From positions 1 to 61,939 of IMG/VR virus record IMGVR_UViG_3300037225_000134: 61,939 nt of DNA. One strand, 5' to 3'. Shown here one piece after another: positions 1,545 to 56,428 of the stretch; the first letter of the stretch is position 1; the number at the start of each line of letters is the position of its first letter. The stretch is from a virus. The position numbers and the translations under genes were made by a program. The notes beneath the pieces were generated by a model. It worked only from the letters and a program-made list of their open reading frames with translations. It searched no databases and was not told where the DNA came from.

Positions 1545-1694
1545 ATGGTACAATGTTTTAGAGACAAAACTAGAGAATGCGATAAAGGATGTATAGCCTT
1601 CATAGATGATGGATCAAGATTCACTAAGGAAAGATGTTTGATTTTATTATCTATGGCTACTAGTGCGGATATAGAGTATGTTTTAGATGACTAA
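1545..1694 (+). CDS. small Cys-containing protein of unknown function
   Basis: A 49-residue frame with a good GGAGG site and a TATA box upstream. It has four cysteines (C4, C12, C16, C31) and an acidic C-terminus ending VLDD. It overlaps the tnpA start by eight bases. It is not a recognised family. It may be a native viral microprotein interrupted downstream by the IS, or an IS-associated leader. Confidence 0.45.
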   Translation: MVQCFRDKTRECDKGCIAFIDDGSRFTKERCLILLSMATSADIEYVLDD

Positions 1695-2097
1695 ACAAGA
1701 GCATTGGGTGAGTGCAAGAGGATGTGTCTATAACGTGTATTACCATTTCGTATGGTCTACAAAATACCGGAGAAAGGTTCTTGTTGGATCAGTGGCCGAA
1801 GATCTTCACTGGCTGCATGAACTGATTGCAGAACAGAAAGGCATTGAAATGGTAAATCAAGAAATCATGCCCGATCATGTTCACCTTTTTGTAACTGCTC
1901 ATCCAATATTTGCTCCTGCGAATATCGTTAAGATCTTCAAAGGAATCACGGCAAAGAAGCTCTTTGAAAAGCATCCTGAACTGAGAAATCAACTCTGGAA
2001 TGGTCATCTCTGGAATCCTTCGTACTATGTAGGAACCTGTGGTGATGCTACCAAAGATGTAATAGAACGATATGTAGCAATGCAAAAGGTGGAGTAA
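1687..2097 (+). CDS. tnpA: IS200/IS605 transposase TnpA (HUH, Y1)
   Basis: Single-strand DNA transposase of the REP-type Y1 family; it cuts and joins the transposon ends through one tyrosine. 136 residues, the usual family length. The HUH metal site is H64-x-H66 in the MPDHVHLF block and the catalytic tyrosine is Y113 or Y114 in the PSYYVGT block, followed by the helix carrying ERYVAMQ. All key residues are present, so the protein looks functional. tnpB follows four bases after the stop, the normal IS605 order. Confidence 0.93.
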   Translation: MTKQEHWVSARGCVYNVYYHFVWSTKYRRKVLVGSVAEDLHWLHELIAEQKGIEMVNQEIMPDHVHLFVTAHPIFAPANIVKIFKGITAKKLFEKHPELRNQLWNGHLWNPSYYVGTCGDATKDVIERYVAMQKVE

Positions 2098-2101
2098 GCC
2101 A

Positions 2102-3202
2102 ATGAGAGTGTTTCGATATAGACTCAAACCAACCAAGGCTCAGGTAACCAAGCTGAATGAGCAGCTAGAGCTTTGCCGATGGGTTTATAACGAAACTCTT
2201 GCACTGCGAAAGAACTCCTTTGAACAAGAAGGCAAATCGATAAGCTACTTCGCATCTAAGAAGATGCTGCCTATCTGGAAAGAGTCCAAACCTGAACTAA
2301 GATCGGTCCATTCTCAGGTATTGCAGGATGTTGTTCTCAGGGTCAATCTTGCATTCAGTGCATTCTTCCGAAGAGTCCAATCTGGTGAAGAAGATCCTGG
2401 TTATCCTCGCTTCAAAGGGAGGAACAGATATGACAGCCTCAGTTATCCTCAGACAGGTTTTTCCATAGACGGTAACATGATTTGGTTATCCAAGATAGGT
2501 GATATCAAATTCAAGTTGCATCGACCTATCGAGGGTGATGTTAAGAGACTAACTATCCGAAGATCTTCAACCAAGAAATGGTATGTGTCGTTCCTAATTG
2601 AAGATGCACCAAATCACATTCTTGAACCCTCTAATGAAATAGTAGGCGTAGATATGGGTATCAAGAATTTCGCTGTGCTTTCCAACGGTGAGTCTATCGA
2701 GAATCCTAGATTTCTTCTAGCCGATGAAGAACGACTTAAGAAGGCTCAAAGCAAACGTGATAAGCTTCCTAAAGGATCACCTCGGAGAAGGAAGGCAAGC
2801 AAAGCGGTAAGTCATCTATACGAGAGAGTAACCAATCGAAGAGAAGACTTTGCCCAACAACTAAGTAGGCAGTGGATCAACAAATACGGAATAATTGTAT
2901 TTGAAGATCTGAATATATCAAATATGGTTCATAATCACAACCTAGCGAAGAGCATCCTGGATGCAAGTTGGAATAAACTGGTGCAATATACTTCATACAA
3001 AGCGGAAGACGCTGGTAGAAAAGTAGTGCTAGTTAATCCTGCTTATACATCTCAGATGTGCTCAAGCTGTGGTCAAATAGTCAAAAAGGACCTGTCTATC
3101 AGAGTACACGATTGTCCTTATTGTGGATTATCGATAGACAGAGACCTTAATGCATCTCTGAACATTGCAAGACTGGGGCTACAGTCTTTGGCATCCGCCT
3201 AG
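2102..3202 (+). CDS. tnpB: TnpB RNA-guided nuclease (IS605 family), copy 1
   Basis: TnpB proteins are RuvC-type, omegaRNA-guided DNA endonucleases that help retain IS200/IS605 elements. This one is 366 residues. RuvC acidic residues are D184 (VGVDMGIKN), E268 (VFEDLN) and D346/D348 (SIDRDLNASLN); the inserted zinc finger is C320-x2-C323 and C338-x2-C341. All catalytic positions are intact. The omegaRNA would come from the gene's 3' end up to the right-end hairpin just after the stop. It partners with the intact TnpA upstream. Confidence 0.93.
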   Translation: MRVFRYRLKPTKAQVTKLNEQLELCRWVYNETLALRKNSFEQEGKSISYFASKKMLPIWKESKPELRSVHSQVLQDVVLRVNLAFSAFFRRVQSGEEDPGYPRFKGRNRYDSLSYPQTGFSIDGNMIWLSKIGDIKFKLHRPIEGDVKRLTIRRSSTKKWYVSFLIEDAPNHILEPSNEIVGVDMGIKNFAVLSNGESIENPRFLLADEERLKKAQSKRDKLPKGSPRRRKASKAVSHLYERVTNRREDFAQQLSRQWINKYGIIVFEDLNISNMVHNHNLAKSILDASWNKLVQYTSYKAEDAGRKVVLVNPAYTSQMCSSCGQIVKKDLSIRVHDCPYCGLSIDRDLNASLNIARLGLQSLASA

Positions 3203-5964: not shown

Positions 5965-6227
5965 AGATAATTAAAGCCTACTCGGACATACTCATAATGC
6001 TATGCTCGCTCGTGTTTAGTGTATCGCTAATACCGACTACACTAAATAATTTTAGGAAAAAAATATGTGAGATACCATATAAAACCTCAATACCGACAGC
6101 ATCCGGTCTATACCTGTTGGTATTTGTCTATATGGCTAATGGCTGGCAGTATTCCGAGTTAGTAGGGCTATTATCCGCTATAATGTGGACTATCATAGCA
6201 CTACAGAGGAGACAATATTATAGATAA
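5958..6227 (+). CDS. small three-helix membrane protein, PQ-loop-like
   Basis: 89 residues with three hydrophobic segments and a basic loop SLIPTTLNNFRKK where the PQ loop would lie. Phage genomes carry similar short proteins related to SemiSWEET. It overlaps the phosphoesterase gene, indicating coupled translation. It may pair with the protein at 4672 or act alone. Confidence 0.6.
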   Translation: MLEIIKAYSDILIMLCSLVFSVSLIPTTLNNFRKKICEIPYKTSIPTASGLYLLVFVYMANGWQYSELVGLLSAIMWTIIALQRRQYYR

Positions 6228-6242
6228 ATATAGATAGGAGAC

Positions 6243-6617
6243 ATGATATATTTGCCACATAAAAAGTATACTCTGAAAAGTGATACCAAACGATATAAGA
6301 AGTACAGAAAACAAGTACTATCTGATAGACAGCAGTGGCATGATAATCATAGAGAAGATTTTAAAAAATACGAAGTATTTAGGAATGGCGAATTAAGGGA
6401 TATGGTGTTTGATCTATTAGGTGATCAATGTGCAAGATGTGGAATCGCAGATTATAGGGTTCTGCAAATTGACCATATAAATGGAGGTGGAAGTATAGAA
6501 AGACGAAAAATAGGTAGCCGAGGAATCTATATCAAGATCCTAGAAGATGGAGGCGCTGGATATCAAATCTTATGCGCAAATTGCAATACTTTAAAGAGAG
6601 CTATAAATAAGGAGTGA
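6243..6617 (+). CDS. free-standing HNH endonuclease
   Basis: 124 residues. A basic N-terminal half is followed by a zinc-binding HNH motif: CARCG, then QIDHINGGG, then LCANCNTLKR. This is the layout of phage free-standing homing endonucleases; the HNH gene inside nrdD at 54052 has the same plan (HHINGGG, LCANCH). It probably mediates its own spread into related viruses. A GGAG site precedes the ATG. Confidence 0.88.
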   Translation: MIYLPHKKYTLKSDTKRYKKYRKQVLSDRQQWHDNHREDFKKYEVFRNGELRDMVFDLLGDQCARCGIADYRVLQIDHINGGGSIERRKIGSRGIYIKILEDGGAGYQILCANCNTLKRAINKE

Positions 6618-15624: not shown

Positions 15625-15753
15625 TTGAGGAATAAGTATCCCAATCTGAAAAGAATGCCTTCAATGTGGACAAAGACGTACTATGTTGGAACTGCTGGTA
15701 ATGTCTCCGCAGAGGTAATCAAGCGATATATCGAGGAATGTCAAGGAACATGA
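15625..15753 (+). pseudogene. truncated TnpA (C-terminal fragment) of a second IS605 element
   Basis: The 42 codons before tnpB read as the end of a Y1 transposase: RMPSMWTKTYYVGTAGNVS then a helix with EVIKRYIEE, including the catalytic tyrosine but lacking the HUH histidines. It cannot transpose by itself. It overlaps the tnpB start (ATGA), the usual arrangement in intact elements. Confidence 0.85.
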
Positions 15754-16862
15754 AGACCGCCTACAAGTTCAGGATGTACCCTAATAAGCAGCAAGAAGCC
15801 ATGTTAGATGTAACTCTTGAAACTTGCAGGCACCTCTACAACACTGCTCTGGCGGATCGTAAGAATTGCTATGAACTTGAAGGTATCAGCAGGTCCTATG
15901 AAGATCAGGCAGCTACTTTGACCCTTGAAAAGAAGGAAGGGAAATGGCAAATCTTCTCTCAGGTTTCTCAGGATGTTTTGAAGAGGGTAGACAAAGCCTT
16001 CAAGGCATTCTTCAGGAGAGTCAATGCAGGAGAGAAACCTGGATATCCTCGATTCAAGGGAGACGGCTGGTATAAGTCTTTTACATACCCACAAGTAGGA
16101 TTCAAGGTTGAAGGATCTAAGTTGGTTCTGTCCAAGATCGGCTCCATCAGGATCTTCAAGCATCGAGAAGTCGAAGGCAAAATCAAGACATGCACTATCA
16201 AGAAGGATCTCTTGGGGCACTGGTATGCGATATTAGTATCTGAGATGGAAGATGTTTTTCAGGTCGAACCTAAGGTTGCTATTGGCGTAGATGTTGGCTT
16301 GAAGAATATGGTTGCACTCTCTGACGGCACTGCTATTCAGTATCCCAGGTACTACGTCCAAGCCGAAAAGAAACTTGCAGTAGCCCAAAGAGAGCTTTCC
16401 CGAAAGAAGAAGGGATCAATTAACCGTCAAGTAGCCAAAACCAGAGTCGCTAAGCTCCATCAAAAGATCCAGAACCATCGAGATGAGTTCCTACATCAAG
16501 TATCCAGAAAGCTCGTAGATTCAGCCGATCTAATTGTATTTGAGAACTTGAATATTTCGGGTATGCTCAAGAATCATCACCTCGCAAAGCATATTCAAGA
16601 TCATGCATGGGGCAAACTAATCCAGTTCACTCAAAGCAAAGCTGCAAAGGCTGGCAAAGTGGTAGAACTGGTAGATGCAAGGTACACTTCTCAGAAGTGC
16701 TCCACATGTGGTATAATAGTTCCTAAGACCCTGGCAGATAGAGTTCATTCATGCCCCAACTGTGGGCTGGAGATGGACCGGGATATCAATGCCAGCTTGA
16801 ACATACTCACCCTCGGACTGAGGGGAAGAGCCTATCGAGATACTGCAAAAGCAGGTCAGTGA
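15750..16862 (+). CDS. tnpB: TnpB RNA-guided nuclease (IS605 family), copy 2
   Basis: 370 residues. RuvC residues D181 (IGVDVGLKN), E265 (VFENLN) and D343/D345 (EMDRDINASLN); zinc finger C317-x2-C320 and C335-x2-C338. All are intact although its tnpA is truncated, so this copy is a TnpB that may persist through its nuclease activity or by using TnpA from the other element. It differs from copy 1 throughout, so it is an independent arrival rather than a recent duplication. Confidence 0.92.
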   Translation: MKTAYKFRMYPNKQQEAMLDVTLETCRHLYNTALADRKNCYELEGISRSYEDQAATLTLEKKEGKWQIFSQVSQDVLKRVDKAFKAFFRRVNAGEKPGYPRFKGDGWYKSFTYPQVGFKVEGSKLVLSKIGSIRIFKHREVEGKIKTCTIKKDLLGHWYAILVSEMEDVFQVEPKVAIGVDVGLKNMVALSDGTAIQYPRYYVQAEKKLAVAQRELSRKKKGSINRQVAKTRVAKLHQKIQNHRDEFLHQVSRKLVDSADLIVFENLNISGMLKNHHLAKHIQDHAWGKLIQFTQSKAAKAGKVVELVDARYTSQKCSTCGIIVPKTLADRVHSCPNCGLEMDRDINASLNILTLGLRGRAYRDTAKAGQ

Positions 16863-20602: not shown

Positions 20603-22399
20603 TTGCCAAGGAATATAGCTAAACAGAAATCGCACGACCCGGCTATTAATCAGCCAAATCTTGCAGATGATTATGTTTTAGTGCTACCAAATGGTACACG
20701 TTATGAACCAATAAAAAATGACCCAAACGCACTGATGAATGCGAATAAAAATAGTTCTTTGGGTATGGAATTCCCTAATACTGATATTTACTTTATCAAT
20801 CCACTGATAACGGTGGACACTGTGCGACACGCAGGGAAGCACTATCTACTTTCAAGAATACTAAGACAGATTGATGACTTTGCATTTAACGGCGCAAAGA
20901 TCAAACCAATTCCTCCAGAGGATAAAGCAAAAGACATTCCCGAGGATGACATTGATGAAGTCCAAAGCAAAATAGATAGGATAGATAGTAAAGTAGTAAA
21001 GACTATTCTCAGAATGAGGCAGGCTACTTACGACGAATTTATCTATGGCAGCGCGGTTTTCGAGCGGATCGAGGGCATAATTGAAGATTGGATAGCCCCG
21101 GTGATATTCAAGAGACTTCCAGCTTATTCTTTTTGTGAAAGACCTATAGGAAGAATGGATATCCAGAGATATGTAACGGGTGATATTCTTTATGGTATTG
21201 TCTTCGACAAAAGGACCAATACCTTTGAGTATTGGCAGAAGCAAAACCAGATATCCGTACCTATCCAGATTCCGACAAAAAATGTGATTCATCTTAAGGA
21301 TGAAATCTCAGAACAAGTAGACGGCGACTCATTTGTTCAAAAAGTCATGCCTCTAATCAGGAAGCTTGATTATGCAGATATGGCACTAATGGAAACAGTA
21401 CACCGGGCCGGTGCGCCGTTACTCTGGATCAAAATTGAAGAATACAGAGACAACCCGGCAGCCCAGGGTCAAGGCTTATGGAGTCCCGCTACAGCTTTTG
21501 AAATGGGAAAGAAGATCGCAGTTAACCACGGCAAAAATAACGCTATGGTAGCGCCATCATGCATAACGCCGGTGCCACTAGATTATAAACTCTGTATAGA
21601 CCCTATGCAGGTAATAACGAGTTATGAAGAGAGAGTTTTAAAGGCTTTAGTGCCGAGGGACTTCTTAGAGTCTCAAAACGGTGGAAGTGGTGGACTCGGA
21701 AAGTCTAACGCTGCAGGTCTAGAGCTACTCATGATGATTGCCGAGGGCTGGAGAGAGCGAGTAGCCAAGACGTTTATTGAGATGTGGAATACCATATTAG
21801 AAGAGAACGGCTACGAGGGCTGGAAAGTTGAAGTTGAATGGAAAGAGTTAGACCCGACAGATGAGTCCGAGCTATTCAAGCGGGCTGCAATAGCCTTTGG
21901 TATGACTAATCTATTCACTGAGGATGAGATTAGGGAGATTGCAGGCAAACCGCCAATGTCCGAGGAAGACAAAACAGCCAAAGAAGAAAAGGATGCATCC
22001 GACGCACAAGCTAAGCAGGATCAGTTTAACGCGACCTTAGCATCTAAGGCAGGCGTACCGCCAGGGCAACCCGGCCAAGTACCGCCAGGACTAGCGCAAA
22101 AGAAAGGCGCGGTACCTCCAGGAAAGAACCCGGTTGGTACTCAGGTCAAACCTGTTGATGTCACTATAACTAAAGACGTTAAAGGCAAAGGCGGAAAGAA
22201 CGTTAAGACCGACAAGGGAGAAGTGGTAAAAGACAAACAAGAGAAGCCACTCAAAAACTCTCTTGTCGAAAACTTTATAACTAATGCATCTGATAAAAAG
22301 ACCCCTGCCGAGCTGGAGAAGCTAATGGCAGAAAAAGCTCACCTTTTTGCAACGTGGGCCAAGGAAGCCGGGTTTATGCCGTGGGATGAAAACGAATAA
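20603..22399 (+). CDS. portal protein
   Basis: 598 residues, TTG start with GGGGGTGA. It should form the dodecameric portal at the capsid vertex. The body has the typical anchor ADMALMETVHRAGAPLLWIKIE, the EERVLKALVPRDFLE helix and a Gly-rich GGSGGLGKSNA loop seen in phage portals of this class. The C-terminal 110 residues are Pro/Gly/Lys-rich low complexity. Location between terL and the minor head protein fits. Confidence 0.88.
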   Translation: MPRNIAKQKSHDPAINQPNLADDYVLVLPNGTRYEPIKNDPNALMNANKNSSLGMEFPNTDIYFINPLITVDTVRHAGKHYLLSRILRQIDDFAFNGAKIKPIPPEDKAKDIPEDDIDEVQSKIDRIDSKVVKTILRMRQATYDEFIYGSAVFERIEGIIEDWIAPVIFKRLPAYSFCERPIGRMDIQRYVTGDILYGIVFDKRTNTFEYWQKQNQISVPIQIPTKNVIHLKDEISEQVDGDSFVQKVMPLIRKLDYADMALMETVHRAGAPLLWIKIEEYRDNPAAQGQGLWSPATAFEMGKKIAVNHGKNNAMVAPSCITPVPLDYKLCIDPMQVITSYEERVLKALVPRDFLESQNGGSGGLGKSNAAGLELLMMIAEGWRERVAKTFIEMWNTILEENGYEGWKVEVEWKELDPTDESELFKRAAIAFGMTNLFTEDEIREIAGKPPMSEEDKTAKEEKDASDAQAKQDQFNATLASKAGVPPGQPGQVPPGLAQKKGAVPPGKNPVGTQVKPVDVTITKDVKGKGGKNVKTDKGEVVKDKQEKPLKNSLVENFITNASDKKTPAELEKLMAEKAHLFATWAKEAGFMPWDENE

Positions 22400-22417
22400 G
22401 AGTGATTTAAATGGGTT

Positions 22418-23014
22418 TTGGTGTTGGTGATATTGGACTTCAATAATTTATGGAAAGGTATTAAGGATAATGTTAGTGAACTTAACGAAAAGGTATGGAA
22501 TTATGTTTGGGAAAAATCAGTAGCCCAGGATTACATGGACGGCCAAAAGGTTGGGGCCGCAAGCCTTAACCTCGATTACTCTCTAAACTCCAGCTCTGTA
22601 ATGAAATACTATCAAGAGCACGGTTTAGAGTTAGTTAAAACCCTCGATGACACGGATAAGGCCAACTTCAAGCTTTTGCTGGAGCAGGGCAAAGATATGT
22701 CATTCCCGGAATTTCAAACCCTTCTCGATAACTCTTTTATAGGCAGCCCGGAACGTGCTAAACTGATTTGGGATAACGAGCAGCATACCGCTAGTGTTAA
22801 TGGCACAAATGATTATGTCCAAAACTATGCTAAGGAAACCGACGCCAAAATTATTACTAAAGTCTGGCACCGGGGAAACAGTATAGTTCCGAGGGAGGCT
22901 CACCTAATTGAGGGCGAATCCCGGCCACTAAATGAGGCCTTTAGTAATGGGTTGATGATTCCTGAAGGAATAGGATGCAAATGCTGGCTGGAGTACATCG
23001 ATGAAAGTACCTAA
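22418..23014 (+). CDS. minor head protein (Mu gpF / SPP1 gp7-like)
   Basis: 198 residues. The C-terminus has the family signature RGNSIVPREAH ... PLNEAFSNGLMIPEGIGCKCWLEY. Such proteins bind the portal and enter the head. The GTG start is uncertain: an ATG seven bases upstream with a better site reads MGFGVGDIGLQ then stops, and that peptide would fit well in front of FNNLWKGIKDN, so a frameshift close to the start (biological or sequencing) is possible. Confidence 0.82.
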   Translation: MVLVILDFNNLWKGIKDNVSELNEKVWNYVWEKSVAQDYMDGQKVGAASLNLDYSLNSSSVMKYYQEHGLELVKTLDDTDKANFKLLLEQGKDMSFPEFQTLLDNSFIGSPERAKLIWDNEQHTASVNGTNDYVQNYAKETDAKIITKVWHRGNSIVPREAHLIEGESRPLNEAFSNGLMIPEGIGCKCWLEYIDEST

Positions 23015-23138
23015 GAACCTATGGGGAACTTGTGCACTATGCTACTGGAAAATAAATCTACCAGGGAGATGTCCAAAGATTAATAATAATCCGGTATTTC
23101 CCTGCAACGGATTCAGGATAAGGAAATTAAAGAAGTGA
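23001..23138 (+). CDS. small Cys-containing protein
   Basis: 45 residues, overlapping the minor head gene. Four cysteines in CALC ... RC ... C arrangement with a basic tail RIRKLKK. Possibly a zinc-binding microprotein. Confidence 0.45.
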   Translation: MKVPKNLWGTCALCYWKINLPGRCPKINNNPVFPCNGFRIRKLKK

Positions 23139-23143
23139 TAATT

Positions 23144-23251
23144 ATGTATGAAGAGGAAGCAATGGTACACTACGTAGCACTAAGTCATTTCCAGGATAAC
23201 AAAGCAGAAATGATTATGACTATGTTTAAGGAAGTTAATGAGGTGAAATGA
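23144..23251 (+). CDS. tiny acidic protein
   Basis: 35 residues, Met/Glu-rich, whose end carries the GAGGTGA site of the next gene and overlaps it by four bases. May serve mainly as a coupling frame. Confidence 0.35.
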   Translation: MYEEEAMVHYVALSHFQDNKAEMIMTMFKEVNEVK

Positions 23252-24012
23252 TGAAGTATATAATTTTAATTGCGATTATGTTTATGTTCTGTATGCCAGC
23301 AACGGCGCATAATGATTATATCTATACCAGTGGAATAGCTGGATTTCTATCGGGAATGTCACCAGTAGTTGATAATGTACCTCCAGTAGTTGATAACGTT
23401 ACTCCAGTAGTGGCAACACCTGGCGTAGATACATCAATGACAACACCACTAGGAATATATGACCCCGGAGCAGAGCAAACAGTATACGAAATACCAACAA
23501 ATACTGCAACTACAGCGACTCCGGCCACAGTCGCAGTTAATAACACCCCGGCCAAAACAGTAGCACCAGCAACACAAGATAAACCCGCAACAGTGGATAC
23601 CTCAATGGTCACTCCAACCGGCTACGATACGACATCACCTAAGGTAGTCATAACAGGAATGCTAAACCAGGATCTAAAAGCCCCGGTGTTTACAAATGTG
23701 TTTAATGAAGCGCAATTTAAGGCGGCTCTTATTCCACTGAGAACGGTAGAGACTGATATTAATACCGGTACATGGGCCAATGATCCCACGACCATAATAA
23801 CAGTGACTTGTATGCCAGGGCATGATGCTTACGGTGCACTGATCCCCGGACAGTATGAGTATTCTATGAGTATGGGATTAACAGCGGTCGGAATGAGATT
23901 CTCCACCGATGAAGCTAACATAATGTCTCACAAAATAGGTCCATCCAGTACCACAGATATTAATGTGGCTTGGACTTGGTACGTGAATCAACTTCATGCA
24001 GTAGGTTACTAA
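23248..24012 (+). CDS. secreted Pro/Thr-rich protein
   Basis: 254 residues. A signal peptide occupies residues 1-20 (KYIILIAIMFMFCMPATA). Residues 30-130 are a Pro/Val/Thr-rich repeat region (PVVDNV three times; DTSM.TP twice). A beta-type C-terminal domain follows. An exported protein inside a head operon is unusual; it could be surface-displayed or a cell-envelope modifier. Not recognised. Confidence 0.65.
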   Translation: MMKYIILIAIMFMFCMPATAHNDYIYTSGIAGFLSGMSPVVDNVPPVVDNVTPVVATPGVDTSMTTPLGIYDPGAEQTVYEIPTNTATTATPATVAVNNTPAKTVAPATQDKPATVDTSMVTPTGYDTTSPKVVITGMLNQDLKAPVFTNVFNEAQFKAALIPLRTVETDINTGTWANDPTTIITVTCMPGHDAYGALIPGQYEYSMSMGLTAVGMRFSTDEANIMSHKIGPSSTTDINVAWTWYVNQLHAVGY

Positions 24013-53221: not shown

Positions 53222-54049
53222 ATGAGAATTATAGATAACGACGCAATGGTAGGACTCTCTATTAGAGATCTACGAAACATAATGGCGGGAAGAGCTGCAA
53301 CAGAAAACGCAAATTTAGCCAATAACCCGGAAACCAAGCACAAGCAAATAGCGGACCTGGTATCTAAGGACTTCTATCTTAAGATGCTTCCTGAAGAGCT
53401 GGCACAGCTTCATATCGATGGTAGCCTACACATTCACGACCTGGAGTACTTCGGTACCCGGCCATTTTGCCGAAGCCTAGATATTAGGCCTACTCTGATG
53501 TATGGGTTTATGCCCGACGGAGGGCATGGAGCGATTGATGCAGGCCCGGCAATGCACCCTGACGTAGCAATACTTCAGGCGGCTAAAGCTCTTGCTATGA
53601 GCCAAACACAACACGCCGGAGGGCAAGGCCTACTGTATGGGCTTGTATTCCTGAGCCCCTTCATGGCAGAGCTGGATTATAAAGGAATTAAACAGATGAT
53701 GCAGCTTTTGATGTATGAATTGAATCAAATGTATATATCAAGAGGCGGGCAAACCATATTCAGCTCAATTAATATATCTCCTGGAGTACCTAAGATACTT
53801 GAGGATGTACCGGTAGTCTGGAAGGGGATTCTATGGGACGGTGAGACTCAACCCTATGGAAAGATGGATAAGGGGATCTACTCGGATTACATCAGGTATC
53901 CTAAGAAGACCTACGGCGACTTTGAAAAAGAAGTAAGGCTTATGTTTAAGGCCTTGATGGAAATATCACTACAGGGCGATATTCGAAACAAACCTTACCC
54001 CTTTCCCAAGTTGGAAGTAAGTATCGAGAAAAAGTTCTTGGAGGAATAA
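53222..54049 (+). CDS. nrdD: anaerobic ribonucleotide reductase NrdD, N-terminal part (split gene)
   Basis: 275 residues covering the first half of the class III barrel: NPETKHKQIADLVSKDFYLKML, GSLHIHDLEYFGTRPFC, ALAMSQTQHAGGQG and RGGQTIFSSIN, ending FPKLEVSIEKKFLEE. There is no ATP-cone before it, so allosteric activity control is probably absent. The stop is followed at once by an HNH gene and then the second half in the same frame as this one. The two parts are expected to assemble into one enzyme reducing NTPs to dNTPs without oxygen. Confidence 0.93.
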   Translation: MRIIDNDAMVGLSIRDLRNIMAGRAATENANLANNPETKHKQIADLVSKDFYLKMLPEELAQLHIDGSLHIHDLEYFGTRPFCRSLDIRPTLMYGFMPDGGHGAIDAGPAMHPDVAILQAAKALAMSQTQHAGGQGLLYGLVFLSPFMAELDYKGIKQMMQLLMYELNQMYISRGGQTIFSSINISPGVPKILEDVPVVWKGILWDGETQPYGKMDKGIYSDYIRYPKKTYGDFEKEVRLMFKALMEISLQGDIRNKPYPFPKLEVSIEKKFLEE

Positions 54050-54051
54050 TC

Positions 54052-54453
54052 ATGGATAAAACAGAATACAATAAGAAGTATAGATTAGATCATATAACTT
54101 ATTTTCATGAATACGATAAAGAACGATATCTTACAAACAAAGATGATATATTAGTTAATAAGAAAGAAGATAGAGAAAAATATCCAGATAAATATAAAAA
54201 ACGAGATAAACTAAATTATAGAAAACTTCGTATTCAAGTTATTATGGCATTAGGCGAAAAATGTGTAGATTGTAGAACTATGGATATTAGAGTATTAGAC
54301 GCACACCATATCAATGGCGGAGGAAGCCAACAATTCAAAACATTTGGAAATTATAAAAAGTATTACAAATATATTATAGATAACCCAACAGAATTTTTAT
54401 TATTATGTGCAAATTGTCATAGAATAAGGCATTATGGTGATTTAGATGGATGA
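54052..54453 (+). CDS. HNH homing endonuclease inserted in nrdD
   Basis: 133 residues. Very Lys/Tyr-rich basic N-terminus (about 1-60) then CVDC, DAHHINGGG and LLCANCHRIRHYG, a zinc-stabilised HNH. AT-rich compared with flanks. Starts two bases after the nrdD N-part stop and overlaps the C-part start by eight bases, so it supplies the ribosome traffic for the second half. Confidence 0.92.
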   Translation: MDKTEYNKKYRLDHITYFHEYDKERYLTNKDDILVNKKEDREKYPDKYKKRDKLNYRKLRIQVIMALGEKCVDCRTMDIRVLDAHHINGGGSQQFKTFGNYKKYYKYIIDNPTEFLLLCANCHRIRHYGDLDG

Positions 54454-55633
54454 AGACGTACCTACATATGAAGAATTATATAAAATGGCATTTGAAGTTG
54501 CTGCGAAATTTGGAACAATTTACTTCGATAATTTACTTATTGATGGTAAAAACAAAGAAAATTCTGTTTCGTGTACCCAATGCTGCGCATATAGCTTCAA
54601 ATCTGATGATAAAACAGATAACAAATTTAACAAAAAACTAAACTTTGTAGGTGGTGAGCATTTTAAGCTCGGAGGTATGCAGGTAGTAAGTATCAACCTT
54701 CCAAGGTGCGCATACCAGGCTAACGGCGATAAAAAGATACTCATAGCACGGATCTATGACATGATGGATAAGGCGGTGGAGATCTTTAAGATAAAGCAAA
54801 AATTGATCATGGATCAGGCGGCAAATGGAAGCTTATCTTACATCAATCAGATTACTCCAAAAGGGGTAAGATTCACAGATTTCAAGTCTCTAGTATTTGA
54901 AATGGGTATTGTAGGCCTAAATGAGATGGTGGAGCATTTCACTTGTGAGCAGCTACATGAAAGTGAAAACTCGCGAGACCTGGCAAAAAGCATCCTGGCA
55001 CAAATGAGTGAATATTGCAAAATGGCCTCGGATACCTATAATATGAAAATTGTATTGGCCCGGACTCCGGCAGAGACAACGGCTCAGAGGTTCGCAGTTT
55101 GTGACATGATGGATGATAGGTACAAAGGATTCGCGGAGCTTACGGTAAAGGGAGACAAGTACACGGCCAAGGGCCTAATAGCCAAGGGAAAAACAAGAGA
55201 CCTGCCGGTATTTTACAGTAATGGTATATCACCAAGCATAGACGCACCTATAAATCTATCCAAAAAAATAAAAATAGAAAGCGAGCTTTGGCCTTATTTA
55301 GATGGCGGATGCATCTCACATATTTGGCTTGGAGAGTCAAACCCTTCAGCCGAAAGTCTTATGAATTTCGCTCTAAGAATCGCACAGAAAACCAATATCG
55401 GGTACTTTGCTTTCAGTAAGAATTATTCACAATGTGAAATATGCCATCATATCACCGATGGAATAGCCAAAAAATGCGAAAAATGCGGAGGCGAAAAGCT
55501 TATCATCTTTGCACGTATAACAGGATACTTGAGTGCAGCGGGCATGATGGAGCACGGAATATTTAAACCACGATGGAACGCTGCAAAAGCTACAGAACTG
55601 TTTATGAGGCACGATGATGGAAAAGATATGTAA
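54446..55633 (+). CDS. nrdD: anaerobic ribonucleotide reductase NrdD, C-terminal part with glycyl radical
   Basis: 395 residues, ATG 54446 behind GGTGAT within the HNH gene. It starts DEDVPTYEELYKMAFEVAAKFGTIYFDNL, exactly continuing NrdD. VSCTQCCAYS (C43-C47) carries active-site cysteine candidates; CEIC ... CEKCG binds zinc; the glycyl radical is G360 in ARITGYLS. With the N-part the total is 670 residues, normal for NrdD. Activated by NrdG downstream. Confidence 0.93.
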   Translation: MDEDVPTYEELYKMAFEVAAKFGTIYFDNLLIDGKNKENSVSCTQCCAYSFKSDDKTDNKFNKKLNFVGGEHFKLGGMQVVSINLPRCAYQANGDKKILIARIYDMMDKAVEIFKIKQKLIMDQAANGSLSYINQITPKGVRFTDFKSLVFEMGIVGLNEMVEHFTCEQLHESENSRDLAKSILAQMSEYCKMASDTYNMKIVLARTPAETTAQRFAVCDMMDDRYKGFAELTVKGDKYTAKGLIAKGKTRDLPVFYSNGISPSIDAPINLSKKIKIESELWPYLDGGCISHIWLGESNPSAESLMNFALRIAQKTNIGYFAFSKNYSQCEICHHITDGIAKKCEKCGGEKLIIFARITGYLSAAGMMEHGIFKPRWNAAKATELFMRHDDGKDM

Positions 55634-55736
55634 GAAATGTAAGAAGAGTAAGGATGTTAAATTTTTTACTAAGAATAACGACAACAAAGACCACCTTGAT
55701 GACTTATGCGATATTTGTATAGGAGAACTAAAATGA
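55617..55736 (+). CDS. small zinc-binding protein between nrdD and nrdG
   Basis: 39 residues, overlapping both genes (ATGATGG and ATGA). CKKCKKSKDVKFFTKNN ... LCDIC makes a short four-Cys ribbon of the type seen beside HNH proteins. Could be a remnant or a real microprotein. Confidence 0.5.
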   Translation: MEKICKKCKKSKDVKFFTKNNDNKDHLDDLCDICIGELK

Positions 55737-56428
55737 AAATGTACTATGGAGGCATGGAGAACGTATCTTTAACTGATTGGCCGGGGGAAGTGGCAACCGT
55801 TATCTTTTTCCAAGGTTGTCCTATGAAGTGCCCGCACTGTTTCAATGAGGCTATGCTACAACCCCTTGGAGCCAATTTGAGGGACCTAAAGGTAATAAAG
55901 GATGACCTGGTATCAAACCCTCTTATATCGGCTCTAGTACTATCTGGAGGGGAACCCCTTATGCAACCCGACGCGGCGAGGGAGTTATTGGTATATGCTA
56001 AATCGATAGGCTTGAAAACCGCTATAGAGACCTGCGGCTATTACCCAAACGAATTAGTCAAATTACTAATTAATGATTTACTTGATATGGTTTTCATTGA
56101 TGTAAAGTCGGAGCTAACTGATGGTTCGCAGAGTATCGCGACGGGGATAAACGACGCTACAAACAAGGTGATAGACAGCTTAAACATATGCTTCACGACG
56201 ACGATACCATTTGAGATTAGAACCACGGTATTTCCAAACTTTCCAAATACAATAGAGCTGGCGAATCTCGCGATGGATATTAAGAAACTGAAAAAGGAGT
56301 ACCCAAATAACGAGCTACAGGGCCACGTTCTGCAACAGGGCATAGCAAAAGAGAGCGAGACGTACTTTGAGCCAGTACTTAAGGCAACCTTAGCAAATAT
56401 GCAGAAAGTATTAGATGAGTTTATTTAA
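55733..56428 (+). CDS. nrdG: anaerobic RNR-activating radical SAM enzyme NrdG
   Basis: 231 residues from ATG 55733 (GGAGAA). The 4Fe-4S/SAM motif is CPMKCPHC near residue 30 (CxxxCxxC), preceded by VSLTDWPGEVATVIFFQG and followed by LVLSGGEPL. It generates the glycyl radical on NrdD. Length is on the long side for NrdG and closer to archaeal activases. Confidence 0.92.
   Translation: MKMYYGGMENVSLTDWPGEVATVIFFQGCPMKCPHCFNEAMLQPLGANLRDLKVIKDDLVSNPLISALVLSGGEPLMQPDAARELLVYAKSIGLKTAIETCGYYPNELVKLLINDLLDMVFIDVKSELTDGSQSIATGINDATNKVIDSLNICFTTTIPFEIRTTVFPNFPNTIELANLAMDIKKLKKEYPNNELQGHVLQQGIAKESETYFEPVLKATLANMQKVLDEFI

Follow-up and report, generated by a model that had tools for sequence, protein, structure and literature searches.

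A class III ribonucleotide reductase gene divided by a free-standing HNH endonuclease gene in a likely archaeal virus

The class Ia ribonucleotide reductase gene nrdA of Aeromonas phage Aeh1 is split by a free-standing endonuclease gene without an intron, and the enzyme is fully functional as two chains (PMC2988022, PMC3653736). The gene order NrdA-a, MobE, NrdA-b resembles the locus reported here, since an HNH gene is located in the gene for the catalytic subunit of a reductase, an intron is lacking and two chains are expected to assemble. However, Aeh1 is a bacterial phage with a class Ia enzyme of demonstrated activity, whereas the present case concerns a class III glycyl-radical enzyme with another insertion point, in a likely archaeal setting, and its activity as two chains is predicted. 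The locus was identified in the IMG/VR virus record IMGVR_UViG_3300037225_000134, which was analysed as one stretch of 61,939 nucleotides (referred to below as the window).

Interruption of nrdD by homing endonucleases has also been published, in all cases for bacterial phages, namely UAB_Phi87, JH2 and HB-2014 (PMC4837284) and the Jug phages (PMC12363816). In the first three, which are members of Felixounavirus, a small HNH gene divides nrdD so that three consecutive ORFs result, similar to the organization in the window. However, UAB_Phi87 contains a group I intron (Rfam, E 2e-7) and is split at NRDD 250/293, whereas the split in the window is at 213/220 with no intron detected. Because of this group I intron, nrdD of UAB_Phi87 is probably spliced rather than two-chained. 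The UAB_Phi87 intron (positions 1526-1706 of the locus L288) scored 38 bits, compared to an Rfam gathering score of 50. In the Jug phages, nrdD is likewise broken up into several ORFs separated by gaps that contain endonucleases, but the gaps are mostly group I introns for which splicing was seen, and the hosts are bacterial; one gap without splicing evidence may be comparable. The nrdD gene of phage T4 (sunY) is a homing target as well, yet its I-TevII is a GIY-YIG enzyme and resides in a self-splicing group I intron (PMC2988022). For phage phiAS4, nrdD was reported in three pieces with no endonuclease, which was left unexplained (PMC3653736); in the first 50 kb of the phiAS4 record no nrdD is listed.

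In the first-pass annotation of the window it was proposed that a glycyl-radical enzyme split in this way in an archaeal virus would be new. As far as the division of nrdD by an HNH gene is concerned, this did not stand, since UAB_Phi87, JH2, HB-2014 and the Jug phages had been published. The other part agrees with a literature search in which subscription papers were thinly covered: it returned no published class III enzyme split by an endonuclease without an intron, nor any case from an archaeal virus. The apparent novelty is the HNH split of a glycyl-radical reductase without an intron, and its presence in an archaeal virus.

Organization of the divided nrdD locus

At positions 53222-55633 of the window, NrdD is cut into genes for 275 and 395 amino acids by a gene for an HNH protein of 133 amino acids. 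The features of the locus are as follows:

53222..54049, plus strand: NrdD-a, N-terminal half, 275 aa (Pfam NRDD 1-213/562, E 1.5e-51)
54040..54044, plus strand: GGAGG, ribosome-binding site of the HNH gene, within the last codons of the first half (from sequence)
54052..54453, plus strand: free-standing HNH endonuclease gene, 133 aa (phrog_2255 1.8e-13, phrog_3106 5e-11)
54052..54650, plus strand: AT-rich block, candidate mobile unit, comprising the HNH gene and about the first 68 codons of the second half (GC 27.5%)
54436..54441, plus strand: GGTGAT, ribosome-binding site of the second half, within the HNH gene end (identical hexamer upstream of the first half)
54446..55633, plus strand: NrdD-b, C-terminal half, 395 aa (Pfam NRDD 220-560/562, E 9.3e-72)
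55617..55735, plus strand: small cysteine-rich ORF (MEKICKKCKKSKDVKFFTKNNDNKDHLDDLCDICIGELK), 38 aa, overlapping the end of the second half and the nrdG start (from sequence)
55706..56428, plus strand: NrdG2-type radical-SAM activase of NrdD (TIGR02495 NrdG2, 3.2e-41, above cut-off)

The first half ends with KKFLEE and the stop codon TAA at 54047-54049, the HNH ORF begins two bases (TC) after this stop, and the second half starts 8 bases inside the end of the HNH ORF in the same frame as the first. These coordinates agree exactly with the layout that had been read in the first pass. Together, the two halves cover NRDD 1-213 and 220-560 of 562, a complete domain distributed over two chains. Since each piece is significant alone, and the pieces abut in the profile and follow each other in order, the split is far beyond chance. 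The arrangement of nrdD as two separately initiated ORFs divided by a free-standing HNH gene is supported by the sequence.

For both halves, all positions which are invariant in alignments with 47-49 relatives were found to be kept, as had been claimed for the key residues including the glycyl radical site. The first half holds HIHD and Cys83, and the second half holds the CC pair 46/47 in the finger loop, ATPAE, the four zinc cysteines C330, C333, C344 and C347 near the C-terminus, and the glycyl-radical motif RITGY with Gly360. A full NRDD domain, zinc cysteines, the glycyl site, the finger-loop cysteine and an adjacent NrdG activase place the enzyme among the class III reductases. The halves were modelled singly with AF2 at pLDDT 88 and pTM 0.84 (first half) and pLDDT 86 and pTM 0.87 (second half), and all Foldseek matches of either half at E<=0.001 were to NrdD. 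For nrdG, the start codon at 55733, which follows AGGAG, looks likelier than the one at 55706, and the 38-aa cysteine-rich ORF may be part of the operon.

The first half begins right after the position of the ATP-cone in relatives, and the virus enzyme is therefore devoid of this regulatory domain, which is present in the NrdD of the viral contig L282. Loss of the ATP-cone takes away regulation and not catalysis, and the NrdD of T4 has no ATP-cone either. This absence would fit an HNH insertion which broke nrdD, with both halves now decaying and dNTPs supplied by a host reductase, as would the fact that the split form is known from a single genome. However, decay is unlikely, given that neither stops nor frameshifts interrupt the 670 codons of the two halves and every catalytic residue is present, that the second half has a ribosome site of its own and that NrdG2 is intact.

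The hexamer GGTGAT is located 4-5 bases ahead of the start codon of the first and the second half alike; both GGTGAT and GGAGG are complementary to the usual 3' end of archaeal 16S rRNA. Among 15 ATGs in 54052-54640, such a site was identified only for 54446 and for its out-of-frame neighbour four bases on, at 54450; in the whole window, a ribosome-site match of at least 6 bases was present for 43 of the 1646 ATGs. Because the site is restricted to the start of the second half and the adjacent ATG, the second half looks like a separately initiated gene. The host frame contains 11 stops across the insert, and rejoining of the halves by read-through or a simple frameshift is therefore ruled out.

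A search of the 3.5 kb around the insert against Rfam gave no match at E<=1, including any to a group I catalytic core, and the whole window gave nothing at gathering scores. As a positive control, the same search on the split nrdD of UAB_Phi87 (PMC4837284) identified Intron_gpI with an E of 2e-7. RNA folding of the insert is no better than that of shuffled sequence (z +0.84), and group I and group II introns were rejected on the basis of the empty Rfam search and this folding score. The 402-base HNH ORF takes up nearly the entire insert and has its own start and stop codons; with Rfam empty and the control positive, the gene appears to lie outside an intron or intein, in line with the absence of such features noted in the first pass. 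Because Rfam was empty with a working control, the insert consists of little besides the ORF and its fold is no better than shuffles, splicing is unlikely as an explanation. The HNH gene might still reside in a self-splicing intron unknown to Rfam, or in an archaeal bulge-helix-bulge intron, so that splicing restores one NrdD. This idea draws on the many phage nrdD interruptions in which a group I intron carries an HNH gene (PMC3653736, PMC12363816), and on the UAB_Phi87 intron, which falls under the Rfam gathering score and reveals that weak introns exist. It is nonetheless improbable, since a catalytic core has no room outside the ORF and the ribosome site and start codon of the second half are exactly placed, in addition to the Rfam and folding results.

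Insertion site, relatives and origin of the insert

When used as a single-sequence query against viral and genome contigs, neither half gave a match, and alignment queries were needed. The first relatives retrieved, with about 28% identity, were mostly of bacterial type, and those of archaeal type (36-49%) were found via a Methanomethylovorans plasmid and later scans. This plasmid, pMETHO01 of Methanomethylovorans hollandica (NC_019972.1), contains two undivided NrdD genes of the virus type, at 21529-23856 and 210528-212852. The closest relative is L282, with 58% identity to the first half and 49-50% to the second; its NrdD is undivided, and a HAD-like gene upstream of nrdD is common to L282 and the window (2.4e-26). 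At the cut (marked by a slash), FVDEETWSIPLIDSEMTKTAPSYRELY of L282 faces FLEE / MDEDVPTYEELY of the window, and in a longer alignment IEKKFVDEETWSIPLIDSEMTKTAPSYRELYEMAFEV of L282 is opposite to IEKKFLEE / MDEDVPTYEELYKMAFEV.

Among the nearest relatives, the loop at the cut has a length of about 8-16 residues; it is shorter in the contigs L233 and L235 and in M. hollandica, and is nearly missing in Asgard archaea; its length varies widely among relatives. Because of these differences between L282, L233/L235, M. hollandica and Asgard archaea, the insertion is, as judged from the alignments, in a length-variable loop, part of which was replaced with zero core residues missing. In the model of the first half, a strand at 263-266 and a short helix are present at the end, and the model of the second half begins with a helix at 8-22 and a strand at 26-28, followed by the CC finger loop. 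The finger loop has been placed between strands E and F (PMC9669993). With this placement, the cut would precede strand E, and the second chain would supply one strand of the first half-barrel.

A search for undivided NrdD in relatives had been suggested in the first pass, and such proteins were found: at the loop, NrdD is undivided in L282, L233, L235 and M. hollandica (at the protein level; a near-identical empty allele was not found), and in 140 further retrieved loci both halves are in a single frame. The split itself is known from one genome, and the near-identical sister contig (L058/G001) ends short of the nrdD region. It could be imagined that NrdD was split earlier for another cause and that the HNH gene later settled between two existing genes, an order of events discussed for gene 43A/43B of phage 25 (PMC2988022). 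Endonuclease genes do settle between genes, and four other viral contigs have NrdD split elsewhere with no endonuclease at the junction. However, among the retrieved relatives none is split at this site without an HNH gene, and the 8-base overlap with the second half together with the 2-base gap after the first suits a single event, so that a split preceding the HNH gene has little probability.

The HNH protein has intact motifs (CVDC...AHH...CANCHRIRH, with two CxxC). Its best protein families are phage HNH endonucleases, and it matches endonuclease families in general; the match to Pfam HNH_2 was only 0.025, below cut-off. The gene is predicted to encode a homing endonuclease that would cut undivided nrdD. 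At 6243-6617, the window contains another, related free-standing HNH gene, which shares 31% identity with the nrdD insert and around which no split gene was recognised.

The GC content of the HNH gene is 26%, compared to 45% for the first half, and the 600 bp from 54052, at 27.5%, have the lowest GC among 1227 windows (mean 41.7, sd 3.5). Low GC runs past the HNH gene and about 200 bp into the second half, with a change point at 54650 (permutation p about 0.01); the GC3 of the second half is 24% before this point and 44% after it. The AT-rich block is consistent with a mobile unit plus a one-sided co-conversion tract from homing. Amino-acid identities within the AT-rich tract gave no significant donor signal (32/64 versus 36/64) and neither support nor exclude a separate donor. 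The sharp change of composition at the junctions could also be expected from an assembly artefact in which two reads or genomes were joined. However, the AT-rich stretch stops within the second half and not at the junction, the layout of frame, overlap and ribosome sites is exact and the NRDD coverage of the halves is complementary, which makes an artefact hardly conceivable.

With respect to the host, a TnpB of the window is 53% identical to the TnpB of the Methanomethylovorans plasmid pMETHO01, the terminase is nearest to those of haloarchaeal tailed viruses, and the virus NrdD falls among those of methanogens and Asgard archaea. These similarities agree with the archaeal-virus setting assumed in the first-pass annotation, and a methanogen-like archaeon is the likely host. 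An IS200/IS605-type tnpA-tnpB pair at 1687-3202 and a further tnpB at 15738-16862, the one with 53% identity to pMETHO01, are candidate insertions in the window; the sister contig skips 15620-16903 of the window.

Proposed formation and assembly of the two-chain enzyme

We consider it quite probable that an HNH homing endonuclease gene replaced a loop of nrdD, with no intron or intein involved, and that the two chains assemble into a working reductase with NrdG2. A free-standing HNH gene would have entered nrdD at the variable loop between a barrel strand and the helix that precedes the following strand, and the loop would have been replaced by a stop codon, the HNH gene and a new start codon. 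From one transcript, NrdD-a, the HNH protein and NrdD-b would each be translated via their own ribosome site. NrdD-a and NrdD-b would then join non-covalently as one ten-stranded barrel, to which NrdD-a would give the first strands and one active-site cysteine. NrdD-b would bring another strand along with the finger loop and the glycyl radical domain, which the NrdG2 encoded next to it would activate. In competing genomes, nrdD that is still undivided would presumably be cleaved close to this site by the HNH protein, which would spread by repair. For endonuclease activity, homing, assembly of the NrdD chains and enzyme activity alike, we infer the function from the genes and their predicted products.

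Detached glycyl-radical domains and other NrdD variants

In four viral contigs (L234, L236, L237 and L259), the NrdD core has about 671-690 amino acids and stops at NRDD 512-513/562. The missing end of NRDD (about 507-562, with RVTGY or RITGY) was identified in a separate zinc-ribbon protein of 127-143 amino acids encoded upstream. The operon order, radical domain, glutaredoxin, NrdD core, is the same in 4/4 contigs. The loci are of archaeal type:

L234, 4277-7026: detached-domain locus
L236, 4344-7002: detached-domain locus
L237, 4381-7023: detached-domain locus
L259, 2127-4769: detached-domain locus

Between L237 and L259, the small radical-domain protein is 69% identical, with a pN of 0.20 versus a near-saturated pS of 0.73, and on these values it is maintained under purifying selection. 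A small radical-domain protein is also encoded at 6001-6348 of the 57,216 bp contig L261, in which no NrdD core was detected; either part of the genome is missing or the protein may serve a host enzyme as a spare part. The detached-domain contigs, and only these, resemble the spare parts YfiD and Y06I of pyruvate formate-lyase (PFL) in that a chain of its own carries the glycyl radical domain. However, YfiD and Y06I repair PFL, and a validated counterpart for other glycyl radical enzymes has not been described (PMC8683613). The contigs with detached radical domains may be more novel than the HNH split.

Further variants of NrdD were encountered among the retrieved loci. In an archaeal genome (G177, locus L247), an NrdD frame of 1115 aa has about 330 extra residues beside the active-site CC, a probable intein. 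A phage NrdD of 925 aa (L245, 3682-6459) carries, at the ATPAE region, an insertion that resembles an intein (start CFSSSTKFIIKNK, end ANGIISHNC). In L281 (5221-6455), the glycyl motif (RRVTGR) is where the NrdD ORF stops; the protein end is in another ORF after a gap, possibly caused by an intron at the radical-site codon. The NrdD of L084 (4149-6250) has three in-frame TAG codons, which correspond to Gln in relatives where checked, and L084 is likely a phage with TAG read as Gln.

We regard it as an even chance that archaeal viruses have modular class III reductases, with a barrel formed from two chains in the window and the glycyl radical provided in trans on a separate protein in L234, L236, L237 and L259. 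Glycyl radical enzymes must bury the radical and form an intact barrel. A two-chain enzyme of this type, if true, tests to what extent covalent continuity is needed for radical chemistry and activase docking. With the detached radical domains, it can be tested directly whether a glycyl radical acts in trans in a reductase, and a constitutively separate radical-domain subunit, if true, would be a new architecture for a glycyl radical enzyme. For the virus of the window, the split would show that an intron-free homing endonuclease can divide an enzyme which is essential, here in an archaeal virus.
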